This document shows positions 277 through 54,442 of a stretch of DNA of 64,000 bases, piece by piece. The notes under the pieces were generated by a model, which saw only the letters and a list, made by a program, of their open reading frames with translations, did not search any database and had not been told where the DNA came from. This DNA is from a virus. The stretch lies in the IMG/VR virus record IMGVR_UViG_3300017772_000001, positions 17,344 through 81,343 of that record; one strand, 5' to 3'. Each line of letters begins with the position of its first letter. Position 1 is the first letter of the stretch. The translations under genes and the position numbers were made by a program.

Positions 277-630
277 ATGACTACAATGACAGTAAAAGAA
301 CTAAGTGTGTTAGCAGAATCAAAAGCAAATCAGGCTTCTTTAGATTATTTCAATTCAAAACTAGGTGGTAAGGACAATTATCCCTGTGGTTTTGCATGGG
401 TTACTGTTCGTCCTGAAAATAAGGGCAATACTAAGCTAGGTAAAGAAGAACGTAGAGTGTTAGAATCTATGGGATTTTCAAAAGATTGGACTGGCAAAGC
501 GTGGCAAATCTGGAATCCAGGTAAAGTTAACGTACAAAATGTTGATGTTAAAGAAGCAGGTGCTCAGGCATATGCAGATGTAATGTCTTCTGCTGGGTTT
601 AATGCTTCTTGTGGTTCACGTTTAGACTAA
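277..630 (+). CDS. Conserved phage protein of unknown function, 117 aa
   Basis: Small soluble protein with no recognised catalytic motif. The central segment GFAWVTVRPENKGNTKLGK and the C-terminal pattern VKEAGAQAYADV...GSRLD are typical of a family I know only as a conserved hypothetical in diverse phages. The start ATG has a strong Shine-Dalgarno (GAGAGGG) 7 nt upstream and lies 32 nt after the promoter -10 box, so the gene is probably expressed early from its own promoter. No membrane segment. Function unknown. Confidence 0.8.
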   Translation: MTTMTVKELSVLAESKANQASLDYFNSKLGGKDNYPCGFAWVTVRPENKGNTKLGKEERRVLESMGFSKDWTGKAWQIWNPGKVNVQNVDVKEAGAQAYADVMSSAGFNASCGSRLD

Positions 631-23878: not shown

Positions 23879-24508
23879 ATGACCGTTCTTATTGAAAGAC
23901 TATCCCACAAACAAGCGAATGTGAAATCACGTATCGTGGAAGGTGAGGACGGCGGAAAAAACATGTTCATGGAAGGCATTTTCGTTCAAGGTAACGTTAA
24001 GAATGCTAACCAAAGGGTATATCCTGTAGCTGAAATTACTAGGGCAGTTGAATCTGTACAATCTAAAATCAGCGAAGGTTTCCCAGTATTAGGTGAATGT
24101 GACCATCCGCCAGAATTAACTGTCAATGTAGACAGAGTATCACATATTATTGAGAATATGTGGATGGATGGGCCGAACGGATATGGTAAACTTAAAATTG
24201 TTCCTACACCCATGGGTAACATTATCAGAACATTAATCGAATCAGGTGCCACGCTAGGTGTCTCATCTCGTGGTTCAGGTGAAGTTGGTCACGATGGGAA
24301 TGTGAAGAATTTTGAGATTGTCACTGTAGACATCGTAGCACAACCAAGTGCTCCAGATGCCTACCCGAAGGCAATCTACGAAGGTTTAATGAACATGCGT
24401 GGTGGTTACCAAACTTGGCAACTAGCACAGAATGTACAAACAGACAAGGTCGCTCAAAAATACTTGTCAGAACAAATCGTTAAGTTCATTAATGAACTTA
24501 AACTATAA
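23879..24508 (+). CDS. 21: Prohead core scaffold protease, gp21-like
   Basis: 209 aa. Serine protease of the T4 gp21 (U9/S80) type: FPVLGECDHPPEL carries the catalytic His76, and TLGVSSRGSGEV the nucleophile (Ser129 or Ser130). VTVDIVAQPSAPDAYP is the conserved strand after it. The enzyme sits in the prohead core, cleaves scaffold, capsid and internal proteins, and destroys itself. It is followed after 14 nt by the scaffold gene. Confidence 0.93.
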   Translation: MTVLIERLSHKQANVKSRIVEGEDGGKNMFMEGIFVQGNVKNANQRVYPVAEITRAVESVQSKISEGFPVLGECDHPPELTVNVDRVSHIIENMWMDGPNGYGKLKIVPTPMGNIIRTLIESGATLGVSSRGSGEVGHDGNVKNFEIVTVDIVAQPSAPDAYPKAIYEGLMNMRGGYQTWQLAQNVQTDKVAQKYLSEQIVKFINELKL

Positions 24509-25664: not shown

Positions 25665-26819
25665 ATGGAAAATCTTTTTGAAGGAAATAACTGGGACGGT
25701 ACACGTGATGCACTACTAGAAGGTCTAGAAGGCACAAAACGTGATACAATGTCCGCAGTTTTAGAAAACACTAAAGTAGCACTTAATGAAAGTGCAACTG
25801 CTGGTGCAACACAGGCTGGTAACATCGCTACTCTTAACAAAGTGATCCTACCAGTTATCCGTCGTGTAATGCCAACAGTAATTGCAAACGAAATCATCGG
25901 CGTACAGCCAATGACAGGCCCAGTAGGCCAAATTCACACTCTAAGAGTACGTTACGCAGAAGCAAAAGCTGGCGTGGCGGCAGGTGATGAAGCACTAAGC
26001 CCATTTGATATTGCTAACGCATATTCAGGTGACGCGGCAGGGGCTCCGGCTTCTACAGCATCACTAGAAGGTGAAGCAGGATCAAAAATGTCAATTCAAG
26101 TTCTAAAGCAAACAGTTGAAGCGAAAACTCGTAAACTGTCTGCACGTTGGACTTTCGAAGCGGCACAAGACGCTAACTCAATGCACGGTTTAGATATCGA
26201 AGCTGAAATCATGGCGGCATTAGCAATGGAAATCACTGCTGAAATCGACCAAGAAATCTTAGGTTCACTATCTAACTTAGCATCTACTGGCGCTACATAT
26301 GACATGTCAGCATCATTCACAGGTACACCAACGTTTATCGGTGACAGACATGCCGTACTTGCGACATTAATCAACCAACAAGCTAACCTAGTAGCACAGC
26401 GTACAAGACGTGGCGCGGCTAACTGGGCAGTTATCTCACCATCAGCACTAACAGTTCTACAATCTGCAACTACATCAGCATTTGCACGTACAACTGAAGG
26501 TACTTTTGAAGCACCAACTAATACTAAGTTCGTAGGTACTCTAAACAGTACTATGAGAGTATATGTAAACACATATGCATCAAACGATGACGTATTACTA
26601 GGCTACAAAGGTCAAGGCGAAATCGATGCGGCGGCGTTCTATTGCCCATACGTACCGTTAATGTCATCAGGCGTTGTGGTAGATCCAAGTTCATTCGAAC
26701 CAGTAGTGTCATTTATGACTCGTTACGGTTATGTTGAACTAACAAACACTGCATCATCTCTAGGTAATGCGGCAGACTACGTTTCTAAAATCGCAGTCTC
26801 AAATCTAGCATTCGTATAA
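25665..26819 (+). CDS. 23: Major capsid protein, gp23-like
   Basis: 384 aa, shorter than T4 gp23 (521) but typical for compact marine relatives. AGNIATLNKVILPVIRRVMP, VIANEIIGVQPMTGPVGQIH, LRVRYA and the C-terminal VYVNTYASNDDVLLGYKG, YCPYVPL and RYGYVEL are the conserved gp23 blocks of the HK97 fold. A GGAGAAT Shine-Dalgarno precedes ATG, and a strong terminator follows. Codon usage favours GCA and similar codons as in the tail genes, consistent with high expression. Confidence 0.97.
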   Translation: MENLFEGNNWDGTRDALLEGLEGTKRDTMSAVLENTKVALNESATAGATQAGNIATLNKVILPVIRRVMPTVIANEIIGVQPMTGPVGQIHTLRVRYAEAKAGVAAGDEALSPFDIANAYSGDAAGAPASTASLEGEAGSKMSIQVLKQTVEAKTRKLSARWTFEAAQDANSMHGLDIEAEIMAALAMEITAEIDQEILGSLSNLASTGATYDMSASFTGTPTFIGDRHAVLATLINQQANLVAQRTRRGAANWAVISPSALTVLQSATTSAFARTTEGTFEAPTNTKFVGTLNSTMRVYVNTYASNDDVLLGYKGQGEIDAAAFYCPYVPLMSSGVVVDPSSFEPVVSFMTRYGYVELTNTASSLGNAADYVSKIAVSNLAFV

Positions 26820-38991: not shown

Positions 38992-39741
38992 ATGGCTAAG
39001 AACACAAAAGTTAGAAACGATGTAATTAAGGAAGTACGATTATTGCTAGGTGACGGCATGGTCGATATCGAACTTGATCCTGACCACTATGATTTAGCAG
39101 TAGATGTTGCTTTATCAAAAATAAGACAACGTTCTGAAAATGCAGTAGAAGAAGATTTCTATGCTATGGAATTGAAAAAAGATGTAGACGAATACACGTT
39201 GCCGGCAGAAATTGTTGAAGTTAAGAAGATACATCATCGTTCATTTGGTCACGGTATATCGGGCGGTGTAGATATGGATCCGTTTGAACTAGCATATGCC
39301 AACTCTTATTTTTTCTTAAACAATCATATAGGTGGGCTTGCTACGTTTGAAGCATTTGCTCAATATCGTGAATCTTTAAATAGAGTTGCCGCAACTGATA
39401 TTCAATATATTTGGAATCCAACAACTAATAAAATAAAACTATTACGTAGAATGAGAGCCGACGAAATGGTTCTTATGCATGTCCATTTAGAAAGACCAGA
39501 AGAACAACTTCTAGTAGACCCATATCTTAAATCTTGGATGAGAGATTATACATTAGCATATTGTAAAAAAATGTTAGGCGAAGCACGAAGTAAATTTTCT
39601 TCATTACCTGGCGCCCAAGGTGGAGTATCACTTAATGGTGCAGAAATGAAAAATGAGGCAGATGTTTTAATTGACAAGTTGGAACAAGACCTATCAACTT
39701 ACATAGATGGTTCTTCTCCACTTGGATTTGTAATTGGATAA
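38992..39741 (+). CDS. 13: Neck protein, gp13-like
   Basis: 249 aa. ALSKIRQRSENAVEEDFYAM, LPAEIVEVKKIHHRSFG, DPFELAYANSYFF, FEAFAQYRESLNRV and the C-terminal MLGEARSKFSSLPGAQGGVSL are the blocks seen in T4-type gp13 neck proteins. With gp14 it seals the portal after packaging. In this phage gp13 is separated from gp14 by about 2.7 kb and lies on the other strand. The end overlaps the radical SAM gene by 8 nt. Confidence 0.8.
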   Translation: MAKNTKVRNDVIKEVRLLLGDGMVDIELDPDHYDLAVDVALSKIRQRSENAVEEDFYAMELKKDVDEYTLPAEIVEVKKIHHRSFGHGISGGVDMDPFELAYANSYFFLNNHIGGLATFEAFAQYRESLNRVAATDIQYIWNPTTNKIKLLRRMRADEMVLMHVHLERPEEQLLVDPYLKSWMRDYTLAYCKKMLGEARSKFSSLPGAQGGVSLNGAEMKNEADVLIDKLEQDLSTYIDGSSPLGFVIG

Positions 39742-40858
39742 TATACCCAAAACTGCTTGTTCCTTACTGTGGTCTCATGCGAGATTAAAGGTAGATGGTA
39801 CTGTATTGCCTTGTTGCTTTGTAGAAGAAAGCAATATCCCAAACATAGACGAAGCCCCAAAATTAAAAGATGGGTTGCATAACGCATTTAATTCTAAATT
39901 CTTCAATGATATAAGAAGTAAAATGTTGAAAGGTGAAAAACTTTCAATGTGCGACAAGTGTTGGCGTGCAGAAGATAATAATACACAATCATTCAGGCAA
40001 CAATTTAATCAGTACGATAAATTCATAGGACAAGAGCCAAAGATAAGATATATAGAGACTGCGTTATCGACACATTGTAATTTATCTTGTAGAATGTGCA
40101 ATGATACTTTTAGTAGTAAATGGAAATTAATAAAAAATCCAGGTATGTCGGTTGATGTATCTGTAGATTCATTTGATTTAGAACATTATAATACTGACTT
40201 GTCTAAACTAGATTTTGTTAAATTTATTGGCGGCGAACCATTATTGGATAAGAAGCATTCAAACTTTTTAAATCAAATCATAAACAAATCAGATGCTCCT
40301 AGTAACGTAAGATTGTTTTATAATACTAATGGTACAATAATACCAAAGCAGGAAATATTTGATGCTTGGTCTAAAATAAAAGAAGTAGAAGTAGTCTTTA
40401 GCATTGATGCAATAGGTGAAGCAAACGAAGTGCTTAGACCACCGCACACCTGGGATACTATTCAGAGCGCCATAAATCACTTTACAGAGCATAAATCAGA
40501 TAATATGACGTTAGGTATGCATACTGTGATAAACGTCTTTAACATACACCTATTAAAGGATATAGTAGAGTTTTCATACAGTCATTTTGGAAAGATGCCT
40601 GATGTTGATATGTTGGACTACCCGGATCATATGTCATTAAAAAATTTAGAAAGTAGTTTAAAGATTAAACTATCTAATGTACTTAAACATGCATTTGATG
40701 GACAAGAAGAATTACAATTATTAATAGAATTTATAAATCAACCAACTACACATTCATACACTCTCGACCAAATTATAGATAAAGAAAAAGAAAATGATAT
40801 CTTAGTAAATACTAAGATAGATAAGATAGGATTAAGAGAAGTATGGAATTCATTTTAA
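39734..40858 (+). CDS. Radical SAM protein with N-terminal twitch-type cysteine cluster
   Basis: 374 aa from a TTG start overlapping the gp13 stop. The cluster-binding CNLSCRMC (Cys115, Cys119, Cys122) is the radical SAM CxxxCxxC, followed by FIGGEPLL. N-terminal cysteines (Cys9, CC at 27-28, Cys73, Cys76) form a twitch/SPASM-like site for a second iron-sulphur cluster. Such enzymes modify peptides or cofactors by radical chemistry. No obvious substrate peptide is nearby. No clear Shine-Dalgarno is seen, so translation may depend on gp13. Codon use resembles the metabolic genes rather than the structural ones. Confidence 0.85.
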   Translation: MDNIPKTACSLLWSHARLKVDGTVLPCCFVEESNIPNIDEAPKLKDGLHNAFNSKFFNDIRSKMLKGEKLSMCDKCWRAEDNNTQSFRQQFNQYDKFIGQEPKIRYIETALSTHCNLSCRMCNDTFSSKWKLIKNPGMSVDVSVDSFDLEHYNTDLSKLDFVKFIGGEPLLDKKHSNFLNQIINKSDAPSNVRLFYNTNGTIIPKQEIFDAWSKIKEVEVVFSIDAIGEANEVLRPPHTWDTIQSAINHFTEHKSDNMTLGMHTVINVFNIHLLKDIVEFSYSHFGKMPDVDMLDYPDHMSLKNLESSLKIKLSNVLKHAFDGQEELQLLIEFINQPTTHSYTLDQIIDKEKENDILVNTKIDKIGLREVWNSF

Positions 40859-46890: not shown

Positions 46891-47160
46891 ATGGCATTTG
46901 ACATAGATGTACTAAAAGCAAAATTCCGAAAGAAAGGCTTCACAGAAGCCAAGGCAGATTCGTTTGCTAGAGAAATAACTAACGTAGCTAGAAGTTATGG
47001 AGTTAGTCCTTATGCACTAGTTGATGAAATTGGCCCTAACTTTGACTTAAATGATTTAGGCGCATTCGTAATTAATAGTTCTTTGAGATTTGGGTACCAG
47101 ACTGGTAAAATAAAACCATCTAAACCTAACACACTGGTTCAAAGAGCAATTATTAAATGA
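46891..47160 (+). CDS. Unknown small protein, 89 aa
   Basis: Begins 1 nt after the preceding stop. Helical N-terminus (DIDVLKAKFRKKGFTEAKADSF, ITNVARSYGVSPYALVDEIG). Overlaps the head-completion nuclease gene by 4 nt (ATGA). Probably part of the tail/head-completion operon; no domain recognised. Confidence 0.65.
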   Translation: MAFDIDVLKAKFRKKGFTEAKADSFAREITNVARSYGVSPYALVDEIGPNFDLNDLGAFVINSSLRFGYQTGKIKPSKPNTLVQRAIIK

Positions 47161-47645
47161 AGCAAAAGTATCATCAAGGAAAATATACAATAAGAAACCC
47201 ACAGAAATATTCTGGTAAGGGAGAACCTACCTTTAGAAGCAGTTGGGAGCAAACTTTTATGAATTTCTGTGATGATAATCCAAGTGTTGTTGCGTGGGCA
47301 AGTGAACCTTGCAAAATAACCTATCAAAATCCAATGACTGGAAAAGTTACTGGGTATGTTCCTGACTTTATTATCGTATATATGGATAAAAAAGGAAATA
47401 AGAATGCAGAGTTAGTCGAAATTAAACCTGCAACACAATCTAACCCAGAATTAGCAAGAAGAAAAACAGATAAATCGGCAGTTGTAGTTAATTTTGCTAA
47501 ATGGGATGCCGCAACTCAATGGGCAAAGAAACGAGGCATGCGTTTTCGTGTTTTGAATGAAGGTGATATATATCAAAATACTAAAAAACCAAAACCAGTA
47601 AAGGCTAAAGTTAAAAAACCTAAACCTATTAAAAGAAAAAAGTAA
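47157..47645 (+). CDS. 4: Head completion nuclease, gp4-like (TnsA-like fold)
   Basis: 162 aa. Matches T4 gp4 (also named gp50/65): YSGKGEPTFRSSWEQTFMNF, VVAWASEPCKITYQNP, TGYVPDFIIVY and ELVEIKPATQ, ending in NFAKWDAATQWAKKRGMRFR. Glu31, Asp70 and Glu88-x-Lys90 form a TnsA-like nuclease site. The C-terminal 20 residues are a Lys/Pro tail. It acts after packaging to finish the head. Confidence 0.85.
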   Translation: MKQKYHQGKYTIRNPQKYSGKGEPTFRSSWEQTFMNFCDDNPSVVAWASEPCKITYQNPMTGKVTGYVPDFIIVYMDKKGNKNAELVEIKPATQSNPELARRKTDKSAVVVNFAKWDAATQWAKKRGMRFRVLNEGDIYQNTKKPKPVKAKVKKPKPIKRKK

Positions 47646-47699: not shown

Positions 47700-48272
47700 A
47701 TGACAAAGAAATTAGAAGAAACATTTAATATCTCTAGTAGTGATGAAATTGAAAAAATTATCGCAAATGAAGATGATATTGATGAAGGTGTGCCTACTAT
47801 AGAAGAATCTACTGAAATATCCAAAATAATTAATACTGAAATGAAGAATGCAGAGAAAATTGATGCTTCTTTGCCTATGGTATCAGATTTAAATGAACAC
47901 GATAGAGAAATGGATGATATTCATGGCAAGGCTATGCAGACATTTGAAGATTTATTGCAATTAGGCATGAATGTGGAAGTACACGCTGGTGCAAAGATAT
48001 TAGAAACTGCAAATCAGCTATTAAAAACAGCAAAAGAGGCTAAAGATAGCAAAGTAGACAGAAAATTAAAAATGATTAATTTGCAATTACAAAAAGCAAA
48101 GCTAGACCATCAGAAAGATAGAGATTTACTTAAAGATGATGACGAAATTGAAGCTGAAGGCTCTTTAAATATGGATAGAAACGAATTATTAAAAAGAATT
48201 GCTTCTGCACAAGCAGTTGCCGATGAAGCAACCGGTAAAAAATCAGAAAAAAATAACAAAAATGATAAATAA
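47700..48272 (+). CDS. 16: Terminase small subunit, gp16-like
   Basis: 190 aa. The central SDLNEHDREMDDIHGKAMQT, FEDLLQLGMNVEVHAGAKIL and KVDRKLKMINLQLQKAKLDH helices are the conserved coiled-coil core of T4-type gp16, which recognises DNA ends and stimulates gp17. Unlike T4, where gene 16 abuts gene 17, here 4.6 kb separate the two. Confidence 0.87.
   Translation: MTKKLEETFNISSSDEIEKIIANEDDIDEGVPTIEESTEISKIINTEMKNAEKIDASLPMVSDLNEHDREMDDIHGKAMQTFEDLLQLGMNVEVHAGAKILETANQLLKTAKEAKDSKVDRKLKMINLQLQKAKLDHQKDRDLLKDDDEIEAEGSLNMDRNELLKRIASAQAVADEATGKKSEKNNKNDK
48264..48271 (+). promoter_or_regulatory. T4-type late promoter
   Basis: GATAAATA overlapping the stop of gp16 and 23 nt before the gene at 48295. 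Confidence 0.65.
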
Positions 48273-48294
48273 GAGTAGTACGTTGGAGAGCAAC

Positions 48295-48861
48295 ATGAAA
48301 AAATTTAAAGAATTTTTAATAGAGTCAGAAAAAGAACATAAACACACATTGCGTTTTTGCTGTGAGTTAGATGCGAATGCAGAAGATAGAATTGAAAAGT
48401 TTCTAGGCAAATATGACCTTAGAAGCATATCAAAAACATCTACTACTCCAATCGCAAAGAACCCAATGTTTTTTAAAGAAGTAGAAAATTCAGAAGTATC
48501 TAAAATTGACATTGTTACTGGTTATCCGGTATCAGCCGACATCTTACGTCAGCAACTTTCAGATTTATTAGGTATGCATCTAACACATGTTGCAGTACAT
48601 CCAGAAGGATGGGAACCAAAAGAGGAAGTAGAAGCAGAAGATAAAGAAGCATTACTTACTTCCGAAGAAGAATCAAAATCAGACAATGGTGAAAACTATG
48701 GTCGTACTTTTGTAGACGATTTTCTAAAGTCATTAACACCAAAAGAAAATGACACAGTAGAAAATGAATTAAGTCCGAAAGAAGTACGAGACCAAGCACC
48801 AGAACAAATGGATACAGAAGAAAAGTCTAGTCCATCTGTTATCTCAGGAGATAAAAAATGA
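48295..48861 (+). CDS. Possible internal head protein with capsid-targeting-like N-terminus
   Basis: 188 aa from the ATG after GGAGAGCAAC; a longer in-frame start at 48199 lies inside gp16 and lacks a ribosome site. The N-terminus MKKFKEFLIE matches the pattern of the capsid-targeting sequence of T4 internal proteins (MKTYQEFIAE). A compact domain follows (TLRFCCELDANAEDRIEKFL, DIVTGYPVSADILRQQLSDL, THVAVHPEGW), then an acidic tail. Late promoter, and position between terminase genes, agree with a virion role. Overlaps the next gene by 4 nt. Confidence 0.65.
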   Translation: MKKFKEFLIESEKEHKHTLRFCCELDANAEDRIEKFLGKYDLRSISKTSTTPIAKNPMFFKEVENSEVSKIDIVTGYPVSADILRQQLSDLLGMHLTHVAVHPEGWEPKEEVEAEDKEALLTSEEESKSDNGENYGRTFVDDFLKSLTPKENDTVENELSPKEVRDQAPEQMDTEEKSSPSVISGDKK

Positions 48862-51078: not shown

Positions 51079-52113
51079 ATGATATGGACAGAATGGGATA
51101 AACTAACAGAGATTATTGTTGGTTCCACTTATGATACAAAGTCTTTAGAACAATTCAATGATACACAATTTGTTGATAGTATGTCAAAGATACTAGAAGA
51201 AACAGAACAAGATTTTCAAAAATTATCAGATATATTTAAATCAGCAAGTGTTAAAGTTCATAGACCAAAGAATATACCTTTGCAGGCTGAAAGCACAAGA
51301 CAATGGAAATCAGAGTTTCCATATCCTGCTATATGTCCTCGTGACCATCATATAGTTTATGGAGATACTATTATCAATACTATAGGTGGCGATTGTAATA
51401 GATATACTGAAAGTGATTACTTCTTAGATATAATGTTAGAAAAACATAAACAAGGAAGAAACTATGTTGCAATGCCTAGACCTTTATTGCAGTCTCAGTA
51501 TCAGCATTATGAGACAATGGAACCTCAGATAATGTATCATGCCGCAAATATTATAAAATGCGGTGATACTTTAATTCATTCAAGACCGTATCATGATCCA
51601 GAAGGCAGAGATTTTGGGGCAAGAGGAACAAGAACAGGGTTAGATTGGGTAAAAAGAAATATAGGTTGTGAAACTAAATGGATAGAAATCCCTGAGTGCG
51701 GTCATGCTGATGGTATGTTAGCAATTATCAAACCAGGATTACTAATGACATGGAAAGAAGAATATATTCCCGAAGAATTAAAACATTGGGATAAGATTAT
51801 TTTAACACCATGGGATTTACCTGAGTGGTTTCACGAAATGAGAATACAACACTTCTATAAAGACAAAGTAGAAAATTGGCTATCACATTGGATTGGGTAT
51901 GTAGATGAAACAGTATTTGATTTGAATGTAGTAAGTATTGACGAAAATACATTGATTACAAATGGGCATGATACAAGAATTGAAAAAGAATTAAAGAAAT
52001 ACGGAGTTGAAATGATACCTTTTGATTTTAGACATAAATATTTCTGGGACAGTGGCTTACATTGTGTCACTTTAGATTTGAGTAGACAAGGAGAAAGACA
52101 AAGCTATGTATAA
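51079..52113 (+). CDS. Amidinotransferase-like enzyme
   Basis: 344 aa. The guanidine-modifying enzyme pattern is complete: CPRDHHIVYGD (residues 86-96), GGDCNRYTESD, ECGHADGML (His209, Asp211) and the C-terminal SGLHCVTLDLSRQG with nucleophile Cys329. Glycine/inosamine amidinotransferases and arginine deiminases share this fold; GLHC and length favour the amidinotransferase branch. It could make guanidino compounds from arginine for host metabolism or for modification of phage or host molecules. Overlaps the oxygenase gene by 8 nt, suggesting a joint pathway. Confidence 0.8.
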   Translation: MIWTEWDKLTEIIVGSTYDTKSLEQFNDTQFVDSMSKILEETEQDFQKLSDIFKSASVKVHRPKNIPLQAESTRQWKSEFPYPAICPRDHHIVYGDTIINTIGGDCNRYTESDYFLDIMLEKHKQGRNYVAMPRPLLQSQYQHYETMEPQIMYHAANIIKCGDTLIHSRPYHDPEGRDFGARGTRTGLDWVKRNIGCETKWIEIPECGHADGMLAIIKPGLLMTWKEEYIPEELKHWDKIILTPWDLPEWFHEMRIQHFYKDKVENWLSHWIGYVDETVFDLNVVSIDENTLITNGHDTRIEKELKKYGVEMIPFDFRHKYFWDSGLHCVTLDLSRQGERQSYV

Positions 52114-52879
52114 TGTTGTTATGAGAACACCAGAGTGTTTGATTGTTGATGACTTCTTACCAGAAGAAGTACAAGATAAGATTTTAAATCAAGTTCAAGT
52201 CGATGAATGGGAACAGACGCAAGGTGATGATAAGTTTTGGCACTATACTGATGGTGCAAATTATAAAAATAAAAAACGTTGGCAAGGTGGATATCCTAGA
52301 GGCGATAACTCTGATTTGTGGTTTGAATATTTTAATAAATTTTTAAATGAATATGAACATATCGATGAGTATGTTACAGGAGGCAAATTTGAAGATTATG
52401 CAATGCGTTGTCATGCCTATCCTGCTAATTCTAAAAACCCTTGGCATTGTGATTTTGGCTTTACAACATACACTTATTATTTGCATAAGAAATGGCAAAT
52501 AAACTGGGATTCTACATTGTGTATTTTGCCTTTAGGGTCTGCACAAGAATATTCGCAGTGGTTAGAATTAAAAGAAGGCACTGTGCATCATGATAGTTAT
52601 AAAGAATTAAATAGTCCATTAGAAATGTTTGAACAACAAAGACAATTTAAACCTATTATGGATGTTGGCTTAGGTACATTTGTAAGTCCTAAACCAAATA
52701 GATTAATATTAATACAGAAAAATTCAATACATGGTATAACACGTGTTGACCCGGATGCAGGTGATAACATAAGAGTAACACTCACCGGAGCAATAGGTGA
52801 AGTGGGTTGGAGAGACAGAGTTAAGAGACTTGCTGATACAGAAATTAAAGCAGACGGTAAAGTAGGAAAAATAGAATAG
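52106..52879 (+). CDS. Prolyl-4-hydroxylase-like 2-oxoglutarate/Fe(II) oxygenase
   Basis: 257 aa. NPWHCDFG gives the iron ligands His114 and Asp116; KNSIHGITRV gives distal His209; Arg223 in NIRVTLTG binds 2-oxoglutarate. All catalytic positions are present. It overlaps the amidinotransferase gene and lies 3 nt before gp17. A joint action on a guanidino or arginine-containing substrate is an attractive but unproven reading. The start could also be the ATG at 52121. Confidence 0.8.
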   Translation: MYNVVMRTPECLIVDDFLPEEVQDKILNQVQVDEWEQTQGDDKFWHYTDGANYKNKKRWQGGYPRGDNSDLWFEYFNKFLNEYEHIDEYVTGGKFEDYAMRCHAYPANSKNPWHCDFGFTTYTYYLHKKWQINWDSTLCILPLGSAQEYSQWLELKEGTVHHDSYKELNSPLEMFEQQRQFKPIMDVGLGTFVSPKPNRLILIQKNSIHGITRVDPDAGDNIRVTLTGAIGEVGWRDRVKRLADTEIKADGKVGKIE

Positions 52880-52882
52880 CAT

Positions 52883-54442
52883 ATGGCAGATTTAACTAAA
52901 AAAGCATATCAAAAAACGAAGTTTAGTAATGCACAACTATTAGAATTTAGTAGATGTGCTAGTGATCCTTTTTACTTTTTGAATAATTATTTCAAAATAC
53001 AACACCCAACTAAGGGTAGTATGATATATGATGCATATGGATACCAAAGGGGATTACTTCATTCTTATCATGATTATAGATTTTCTATTTCTATGTTAGG
53101 TAGACAGATGGGAAAATCTACTACTGCGGCAGGATATCTATTATGGTATGCTATGTTTATGCCAGACCAAACTATTCTAATTGCGGCACACAAATATTCA
53201 GGTGCCCAAGAAATTATGCATAGAATTAGACATGCCTATGAATTATGTCCCGACCATATTAGAGCAGGTGTTACGAGTTATAACAAAGGCAGTATGGAGT
53301 TTGATAATGGTTCACGTATCATAGCACAAGCAACTACAGAAAATACAGGTCGTGGTCTTTCAATCTCTTTACTATACTGTGATGAGTTTGCATTCGTTAG
53401 ACCTAATATTGCAAAAGAGTTTTGGACTTCAATATCTCCTACTCTAGCAACAGGTGGTAAAGCTATTATTACCTCAACACCAAACTTAGACGATGACCAA
53501 TTTGCATTGATATGGAGCGGCGCAAATAAAAATATCGATGACCATGGCAATGAAAAAGAAACAGGCATCAACGGATTTAAACCATTCAAGGCTGTCTGGT
53601 ATGAGCATCCAGATAGAGATGAACAGTGGTCAAAAGAAGAAAGAACACGTGTAGGTGAAGAACGTTTTTTACGTGAACATGAATGCGAATTTATTGCATT
53701 TGATGAAACACTTGTAGATAGTATTAAGTTGTCACATTTAGAAGGCAAAGAGCCACTTATGAAAACTGGACAAATAAGATGGTATGAAAAAATTAACAAA
53801 AATTCTACTTACGTTATTGGTCTTGATCCTGCTATGGGTACTGGTGGGGATAATTCTGCTATTGAAGTATGGTCTTTGCCTGAACTAGTACAAGTAGCAG
53901 AATGGCAAAGCAATCGTACTGATATCAGAGGCCAAGTAAAAACTATGCACGATATTCTTACAATACTAAATGACGAAATGAAAGAAATGGGAAATCAACG
54001 ACCGGAAATTTATTGGTCTGTTGAAAACAATTCACTGGGAGAAGCGGCTCTTATAGTTATAGAAGAAATGGATGAAGACAAATTCCCAGGAGAATTCTTA
54101 CATGAGCCTAAGAAAAAAGGAATACAAAAAGCAATTAGAAAAGGTTTCACTACATCTTACAAAACTAAAATAACAGCATGTATGAAGCTGAAATCTTGGA
54201 TTGAGAGCGATAAAATGGTACCGCTGAGTAGAAACTTAATTAGAGAATTTAAAACATTTATTGCAAAAGGTAAAAGTTACGAAGCAAAATCTGGTGAAAC
54301 AGATGATTTAGTTTCAGCTACTTTACTTTGTATTAGGCAGATACAAGTAATATCAAGATTTGATGAAGAATTTATGGAAACGTTAGGAGAATCTTTAGAA
54401 GCCGGAGACGATTTTAACGACCCTCTTCCTGTACTATTTTGA
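52883..54442 (+). CDS. 17: Terminase large subunit, gp17-like
   Basis: 519 aa. ATPase: Walker A LGRQMGKST at 72-80, Walker B LLYCDE at 163-168, then TSTPNL (coupling motif). Nuclease: GLDPAMGTGGDNSAIEV around 312-328 with the catalytic Asp, VENNSLGEAAL, and the C-terminal GETDDLVSATLL. The motor packages DNA through gp20 and cuts concatemers. It follows accessory metabolic genes instead of gp16. Confidence 0.95.
   Translation: MADLTKKAYQKTKFSNAQLLEFSRCASDPFYFLNNYFKIQHPTKGSMIYDAYGYQRGLLHSYHDYRFSISMLGRQMGKSTTAAGYLLWYAMFMPDQTILIAAHKYSGAQEIMHRIRHAYELCPDHIRAGVTSYNKGSMEFDNGSRIIAQATTENTGRGLSISLLYCDEFAFVRPNIAKEFWTSISPTLATGGKAIITSTPNLDDDQFALIWSGANKNIDDHGNEKETGINGFKPFKAVWYEHPDRDEQWSKEERTRVGEERFLREHECEFIAFDETLVDSIKLSHLEGKEPLMKTGQIRWYEKINKNSTYVIGLDPAMGTGGDNSAIEVWSLPELVQVAEWQSNRTDIRGQVKTMHDILTILNDEMKEMGNQRPEIYWSVENNSLGEAALIVIEEMDEDKFPGEFLHEPKKKGIQKAIRKGFTTSYKTKITACMKLKSWIESDKMVPLSRNLIREFKTFIAKGKSYEAKSGETDDLVSATLLCIRQIQVISRFDEEFMETLGESLEAGDDFNDPLPVLF

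Follow-up and report, generated by a model that had tools for sequence, protein, structure and literature searches.

Does the N-terminus MKKFKEFLIE of a 188-residue viral protein act as a capsid-targeting signal (CTS) of the phage T4 type, and if so, what would the protein do inside the head? The gene lies at 48295-48861 of the 64,000-nucleotide stretch analysed here (the window), which is part of a virus record of 81,343 bases. The first-pass annotation of this DNA had likened the N-terminus to MKTYQEFIAE of T4 internal proteins and proposed that the product might be injected into the host to act on it or on its defences, as T4 IPI does. Our analysis separated the two halves of that interpretation: the CTS half held up, with a match beyond chance, invariant determinant residues, a Peptidase_S77 protease encoded in the same window and homologues in virions, and the anti-host or anti-defence half did not. 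We favour, at a probability of roughly 55%, a conserved structural component of the head interior that would be loaded by its CTS, cut after Glu10 by a gp21-type protease and serve in the core or inner body rather than as an injected weapon.

The capsid protein encoded in the window is closest to that of the Pseudomonas jumbo phage PA5oct (69% identity), followed by those of Phosso, Vibrio 2.275.O, 121Q, CBB and RaK2, and close homologues of the 48295-48861 gene lie on contigs of up to 342 kb, which places the source among the T4-superfamily jumbo phages, as a marine representative of the RaK2/121Q/PA5oct clade. The T4-type head set in the window comprises the portal, the Peptidase_S77 protease, a PHROG 10922 gene at the place of gp22 and the gp23-type capsid protein; tail sheath, tube, gp4 and large terminase genes are present as well (Table 1). 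The first-pass description of the gene as lying beside terminase was loose, in that the large terminase begins 4.0 kb downstream, at 52883, beyond four other genes. Likewise, the assignment as a late gene follows from its neighbours only, and no site for the late-promoter motif TATAAATA, which is that of T4, was found near the gene. Elsewhere in the structural region, a radical SAM and SPASM protein is encoded at 39734-40858, between neck and nucleotide kinase genes, and the reading frames at 51079-52113 and 52106-52879, which lie after the structural cluster and before the large terminase, had no Pfam match, the second of them matching endonuclease V in PHROGs (E 1e-9).

Table 1. Coordinates of the 188-residue protein gene, its parts and the genes discussed with it (positions in the window).
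Feature	Position	Strand	Basis or remark
gp21-type prohead protease (Peptidase_S77), presumed cutter	23879..24508	+	Pfam PF03420 E 1.6e-26, above curated cut-off; phrog_207 E 6.4e-61
Major capsid protein (gp23 type), 69% identical to that of PA5oct	25665..26819	+	
Predicted cut LNE/S in major capsid protein, codons 40-42	25782..25790	+	sequence
gp4-type head closure protein, syntenic neighbour	47157..47645	+	phrog_218 E 3.5e-40
Upstream neighbour, 190 aa, order kept across clade	47700..48272	+	phrog_16202 E 3.5e-9
Ribosome-binding site GGAG	48285..48288	+	6 nt before ATG
CDS, 188 aa, ATG start, PHROG 14802 family virion structural protein with CTS-like N-terminus	48295..48861	+	
CTS-like propeptide MKKFKEFLIE, codons 1-10	48295..48324	+	helix 4-10 predicted
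Putative prohead-protease cut E10/S11	48322..48327	+	sole L/I-x-E in the 188-aa protein; rule from PMC9026906
Beta-alpha-beta-beta-alpha-beta (ferredoxin-like) domain, residues 15-103	48337..48603	+	AlphaFold2 model, moderate confidence
Acidic, largely disordered tail, residues 104-188, helix 137-147 predicted	48604..48858	+	AlphaFold2 and composition
Downstream neighbour, 390 aa	48858..50030	+	4-base overlap with stop of the 188-aa gene
Terminase large subunit (gp17 type)	52883..54442	+	4.0 kb downstream of the 188-aa gene, four genes between

The open frame of the 188-residue protein extends upstream to a TTG at 48199, and the preceding gene stops at 48272. The ATG at 48295 is common to 60 of 60 full-length IMG/VR homologues (61 loci less L060, which ends at a contig edge), and the sequence TTGGAG ahead of it is retained in many marine homologues.

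The T4 rules used for comparison are those described in PMC9026906, according to which residues 4 and 7 of IPIII control targeting, residues 8 and 10 control processing, Asp at position 10 stops processing and not targeting, and gp21 cleaves after L/I-x-E; the CTS itself goes back to Mullaney and Black 1996, as cited in PMC9026906 and PMC5694885. The window protein has an N-terminal stretch of the T4 type, about ten residues long with aromatic residues at positions 4 and 7, sharing five of ten residues with MKTYQEFIAE of IPII and IPIII and six of ten with MKTFKEFTST of IPI. A gp21-type L-x-E ends exactly at position 10 and is followed by serine, as in T4 gp24, whose exact cut we take to be MAKINELLRE/S.

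This likeness exceeds chance. We took each ORF at all of its plausible starts and scored its first 11 residues by BLOSUM62 against MKTYQEFIAEA, taken from T4 alone. The 188-residue protein scored 31 and ranked first of 63 window ORFs, the runner-up scoring 17 and T4 IPI reaching 29 on the same scale; among 20,000 shuffled versions of the protein, one scored at least 31. Its orthologue in a 342-kb relative (G001) scored 32, first of 437 ORFs and followed by scores of 31 and 19, and the PA5oct homologue scored 17, ninth of 426. The G001 ORF with a score of 31, at 168710-169057 (L083:8710-9057; phrog_22149, function unknown), begins with MTTYQEVANEA and was considered as a second CTS protein. We rejected it: it has neither an aromatic residue at position 7 nor L or I at position 8, and its score is probably due to chance, since the look-alike ORF at window positions 277-630 begins differently.

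A search of the phage's proteins for the same N-terminal pattern, which the first-pass annotation had suggested as a check, gave a concordant result. We used the pattern M..[FY]..[FY][LI].E, built on the T4 determinant positions, and counted an ORF once if any start preceded by a ribosome-binding site fitted it. The 48295-48861 gene was the only match among 55 window ORFs and its orthologue the only one among 349 in G001, and in an 80-kb stretch of T4 with 106 ORFs the two matches were IPII and IPIII. The single match among 280 ORFs of PA5oct was a gene other than the homologue.

Conservation within the family follows the positions that matter in T4. Across the 47 distinct marine sequences K2, F4, L8, E10 and S11 are invariant, and in every one of them the first L/I-x-E ends at position 10, position 7 being F, Y or I and positions 3 and 6 varying; additional L/I-x-E sites are present in 39 of the 47 proteins. 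Conservation is 0.85 over residues 1-11 and 0.83 over residues 12-106 of the marine sequences, so the evidence lies in the pattern of residues and not in the overall level. One locus, L015 (N-terminus MKQFKEFLTES), was inadvertently left out of the residue-conservation, position-count and 44-sequence sets. Of 173 relatives 80 were retained, and the position counts drew from these 80 the ones not already in the first homologue set. Among 14 distinct non-marine IMG/VR sequences (RaK2-like and Atu_ph07), L occupies positions 4 and 8 throughout, position 7 is I, F or Y, and position 10 is E in five, D in seven and S in two. Elsewhere position 10 is A in PA5oct and XaC1, S in Phosso, E in Vibrio and D in RaK2; 121Q has LTE10/K, and CBB and GAP32 have LTE10/L. 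Distant members of the family keep the hydrophobic helix and have often lost E10. By the T4 rule, the tag may target the protein throughout the family and be cut only in some lineages.

The presumed cutter is encoded in the window (Table 1), and the capsid protein offers a parallel substrate. At the same place, capsid proteins of the clade carry LNE42/SATAGA (window), LTE43/SATSGA (121Q), LME/S (Vibrio), LKE/S (SCTP-2) and LVE/N (PA5oct). A cut there would leave 37.24 kDa of the 121Q protein, for which Table 1 of PMC5646251 gives 42.2 kDa, and 37 kDa by SDS-PAGE estimate. As judged from the residues, LIE10/S of the 188-residue protein is a predicted site of the same kind.

The first-pass statement that the product is not otherwise known proved wrong. 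The window protein matches PHROG 14802, annotated as a virion structural protein (E 3.2e-4 over residues 1-112), and this profile matches 41 of 44 family members, most strongly the RaK2-like ones among them; the 44 were taken from 61 distinct sequences and include none from the phage collection. The PHROG 14802 members CBB_210, GAP32_204, 121Q gp557, RaK2 ORF047 and PA5oct EST35_0202 are homologous to the window protein from residue 1 and lie in the same neighbourhood. The RaK2-like members are 18-23% identical to it; they have L instead of F at position 4 and, in many cases, D, S or A in place of E10.

Mass spectrometry places relatives of the protein in virions. PMC5259590 lists CBB_210 with 13 unique peptides that cover 60.5% of it, PA5oct EST35_0202 is marked ESI-MS/MS, and phAPEC6 gp270c is listed with 4 peptides, 41.1% coverage and a mass of 16.20 kDa (PMC7247149). 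That mass is the one of 121Q gp557 counted from Met38 (16.204 kDa), and the place of gp270c in the gene order fits. Because the PA5oct list also names enzymes, such as ribonucleotide reductase, lists of this sort do not by themselves prove a structural place. The start of phAPEC6 gp270c is probably annotated 37 codons late (121Q gp557, L094:4001-4534), in which case the N-terminal peptide was probably missing from the phAPEC6 MS database. For the Atu_ph07 homologue AUZ94910 (L064:6001-6088), the annotated start lies 29 codons downstream of the conserved one and leaves out the CTS-like stretch. In RaK2-like phages the family gene is followed by one assigned to phrog_16152 and labelled Hsp70 (L093:4549-5109, L094:4541-5083 and L096:4554-5099). 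In most of the copies read, its product has an L-x-E near residues 15-20 that a conserved PY[GS]RTQ block follows directly, and this may be another propeptide.

The family is widespread in the clade. With the window protein as query, tblastn found the gene in 15 phage records, and with the Vibrio homologue as query in 56, at one place in each. Of the 58 records selected by a capsid protein identity of 58% or more to that of the window, 55 carry the gene (accessions matched by eye); the other three are two short records and Salicola phage SCTP-2. SCTP-2, a clade member by its capsid protein, gave no match to the family profile in a search that had no positive control. Scanning IMG/VR with a pattern derived from the PA5oct homologue yielded no confirmed relative. 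The clade records that carry the gene come from phages of hosts as varied as Pseudomonas, Klebsiella, Vibrio and Agrobacterium. In outline the neighbourhood is conserved, with sheath, tube proteins, gp4 and a small gene preceding the family gene, and other genes are inserted into it in Phosso and Atu_ph07.

The AlphaFold2 model (44 sequences) has a helix at residues 4-10, a domain at 15-103 and an acidic tail that is disordered over most of its length, with a mean pLDDT of 60.6. The domain is modelled as beta-alpha-beta-beta-alpha-beta, with pLDDT of 72-83 over most of its length and lower values at 51-70; folding residues 1-108 from the single sequence gave a poor model (mean pLDDT 49). The best matches among solved structures were S6-like and ACT-like, with a VIA-align Z of 7.8 for ribosomal protein S6, which is a common arrangement. 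Neither this protein nor MamM, matched by a PDB sequence profile (E 0.0055), was accepted as a specific relative, and both were read as instances of the common ferredoxin-like arrangement. The Atu_ph07 homologue is among the Foldseek matches in the viral library with E values no higher than 0.001.

No homology to the T4 internal proteins was detected beyond the CTS. The window protein shares with IPI, IPII and IPIII the CTS-like first residues, one L/I-x-E and a companion gp21 protease; its single L/I-x-E ends the CTS, as in IPII, IPIII and Ip7, and that of IPI is at position 19. In contrast, it is acidic (pI 4.8 versus 8.9-9.5 for IPI, IPII and IPIII) and conserved, whereas the T4 internal proteins are described in PMC9026906 as basic, not highly conserved and dispensable. 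A candidate homologue was Ip7, the T-even internal head protein represented by PHROG 2667 (E 2e-41), whose profile matches 14 of the 44 family members (best E 2.1e-4). The match was lost in four of four members tested once the first 10-13 residues had been removed, indicating that the Ip7 HMM recognises the CTS. Ip7 shares with the family a CTS followed by a beta strand and a helix in the same order (hhalign with full profiles, 41 columns, P 6e-4) and a weak Foldseek match (E 9.5e-3, rank 29), and differs in being basic and only 102 residues long. HMMER and hhalign comparisons of the family with Ip7 after removal of the CTS detected no mature-domain homology, and we did not accept homology to Ip7 as established.

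The most serious competitor of a head-entry tag, less probable than it in our estimate but by no means remote, is that the amphipathic helix at the N-terminus may simply be a structural element of a neck, tail or capsid-associated virion protein, the resemblance to the T4 CTS having arisen by convergence in the marine clade with neither targeting nor cleavage. Several observations that weigh against our preferred reading point this way: in the relatives looked at, the gene sits among sheath, tube and gp4 genes, and its neighbours are tail and neck genes; distant members keep the hydrophobic pattern and not Glu10; and the PA5oct homologue is unremarkable beside the T4 CTS, as its rank of ninth of 426 shows. 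The acidity of the protein also weighs against the preferred reading, the T4 internal proteins being basic. An ordinary helix would not, however, account readily for F4 and the L8-x-E10/S11 register being exact in all 47 marine members, among which positions 3 and 6 do vary, nor for the specificity of the pattern in T4, where it finds IPII and IPIII alone.

Injection with the DNA, the role first proposed, appears improbable. PMC3012670 describes T4 IPI as an injected protein that blocks a restriction enzyme, and a CTS-like N-terminus on the sole full-pattern ORF of both the window and G001, ended by the single L/I-x-E as in IPII, IPIII and Ip7, is what such a protein might be expected to have. 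Yet the gene behaves as a structural core gene, with one copy per record, a fixed neighbourhood, near-universal presence in the clade (55 of 58 records) and many host genera, and anti-defence is therefore not our main reading; the contrast with the T4 internal proteins, described in PMC9026906 as not highly conserved, the pI of 4.8 and the lack of detectable domain homology to Ip7 outside the CTS also argue against it. An even smaller chance attaches to a role like that of T4 gp67 and gp68, as a core or scaffold-like protein of the prohead most of which is broken down and lost during maturation. The acidic tail and the CTS-like N-terminus would suit such a protein, but the 188-residue protein has one L/I-x-E versus 19 in the gp22 homologue of the window, and 60.5% of CBB_210 is covered in mature CBB virions in the data of PMC5259590.

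Under the preferred reading, that of a head-interior component loaded by a T4-type tag, residues 1-10 would form an amphipathic helix whose positions 4 and 7 dock the protein on the prohead core, as in the T4 CTS, and the shell would close around the docked protein. The S77 (gp21-type) protease would then trim it after Glu10 (L-I-E/S), as predicted for L-N-E/S of the capsid protein, leaving in the head 178 residues made up of the ferredoxin-like domain and the acidic tail. A protein rod, or inner body, has been described inside the heads of 121Q and phAPEC6 (PMC7247149, PMC5646251), which belong to the same clade, and we would guess from this that the family is a candidate for a part of it, and a candidate only. 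A more specific version, which we regard as doubtful and which leans on the T4 analogy, is that the family forms a CTS-loaded block of the inner body or core, with cleavage kept where position 10 is E and lost where it is D, S or A, the tag then being retained by the T4 rule.

CTS-like propeptides have been discussed in PMC5694885 for SPN3US and related giants, which are another group. In the literature as surveyed by titles and the opening of abstracts, with subscription papers mostly outside the survey, the T4-type CTS has not been joined with the RaK2/121Q/PA5oct clade. As a known virion-protein family the gene is ordinary; its interest lies in the putative T4-type tag for head entry carried by a protein that is conserved among jumbo phages. 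The label of structural protein thereby gains a predicted location and a predicted cut, and the family becomes a first named candidate for the contents of giant T4-superfamily heads, the rod included. The natural variants at position 10 (E, D, S and A) parallel mutations already tested in T4. If the reading is true, the N-terminus would serve as a tag for packaging cargo into heads with about double the DNA content of T4 (378 kb in 121Q versus 175 kb; PMC5646251, Table 2).
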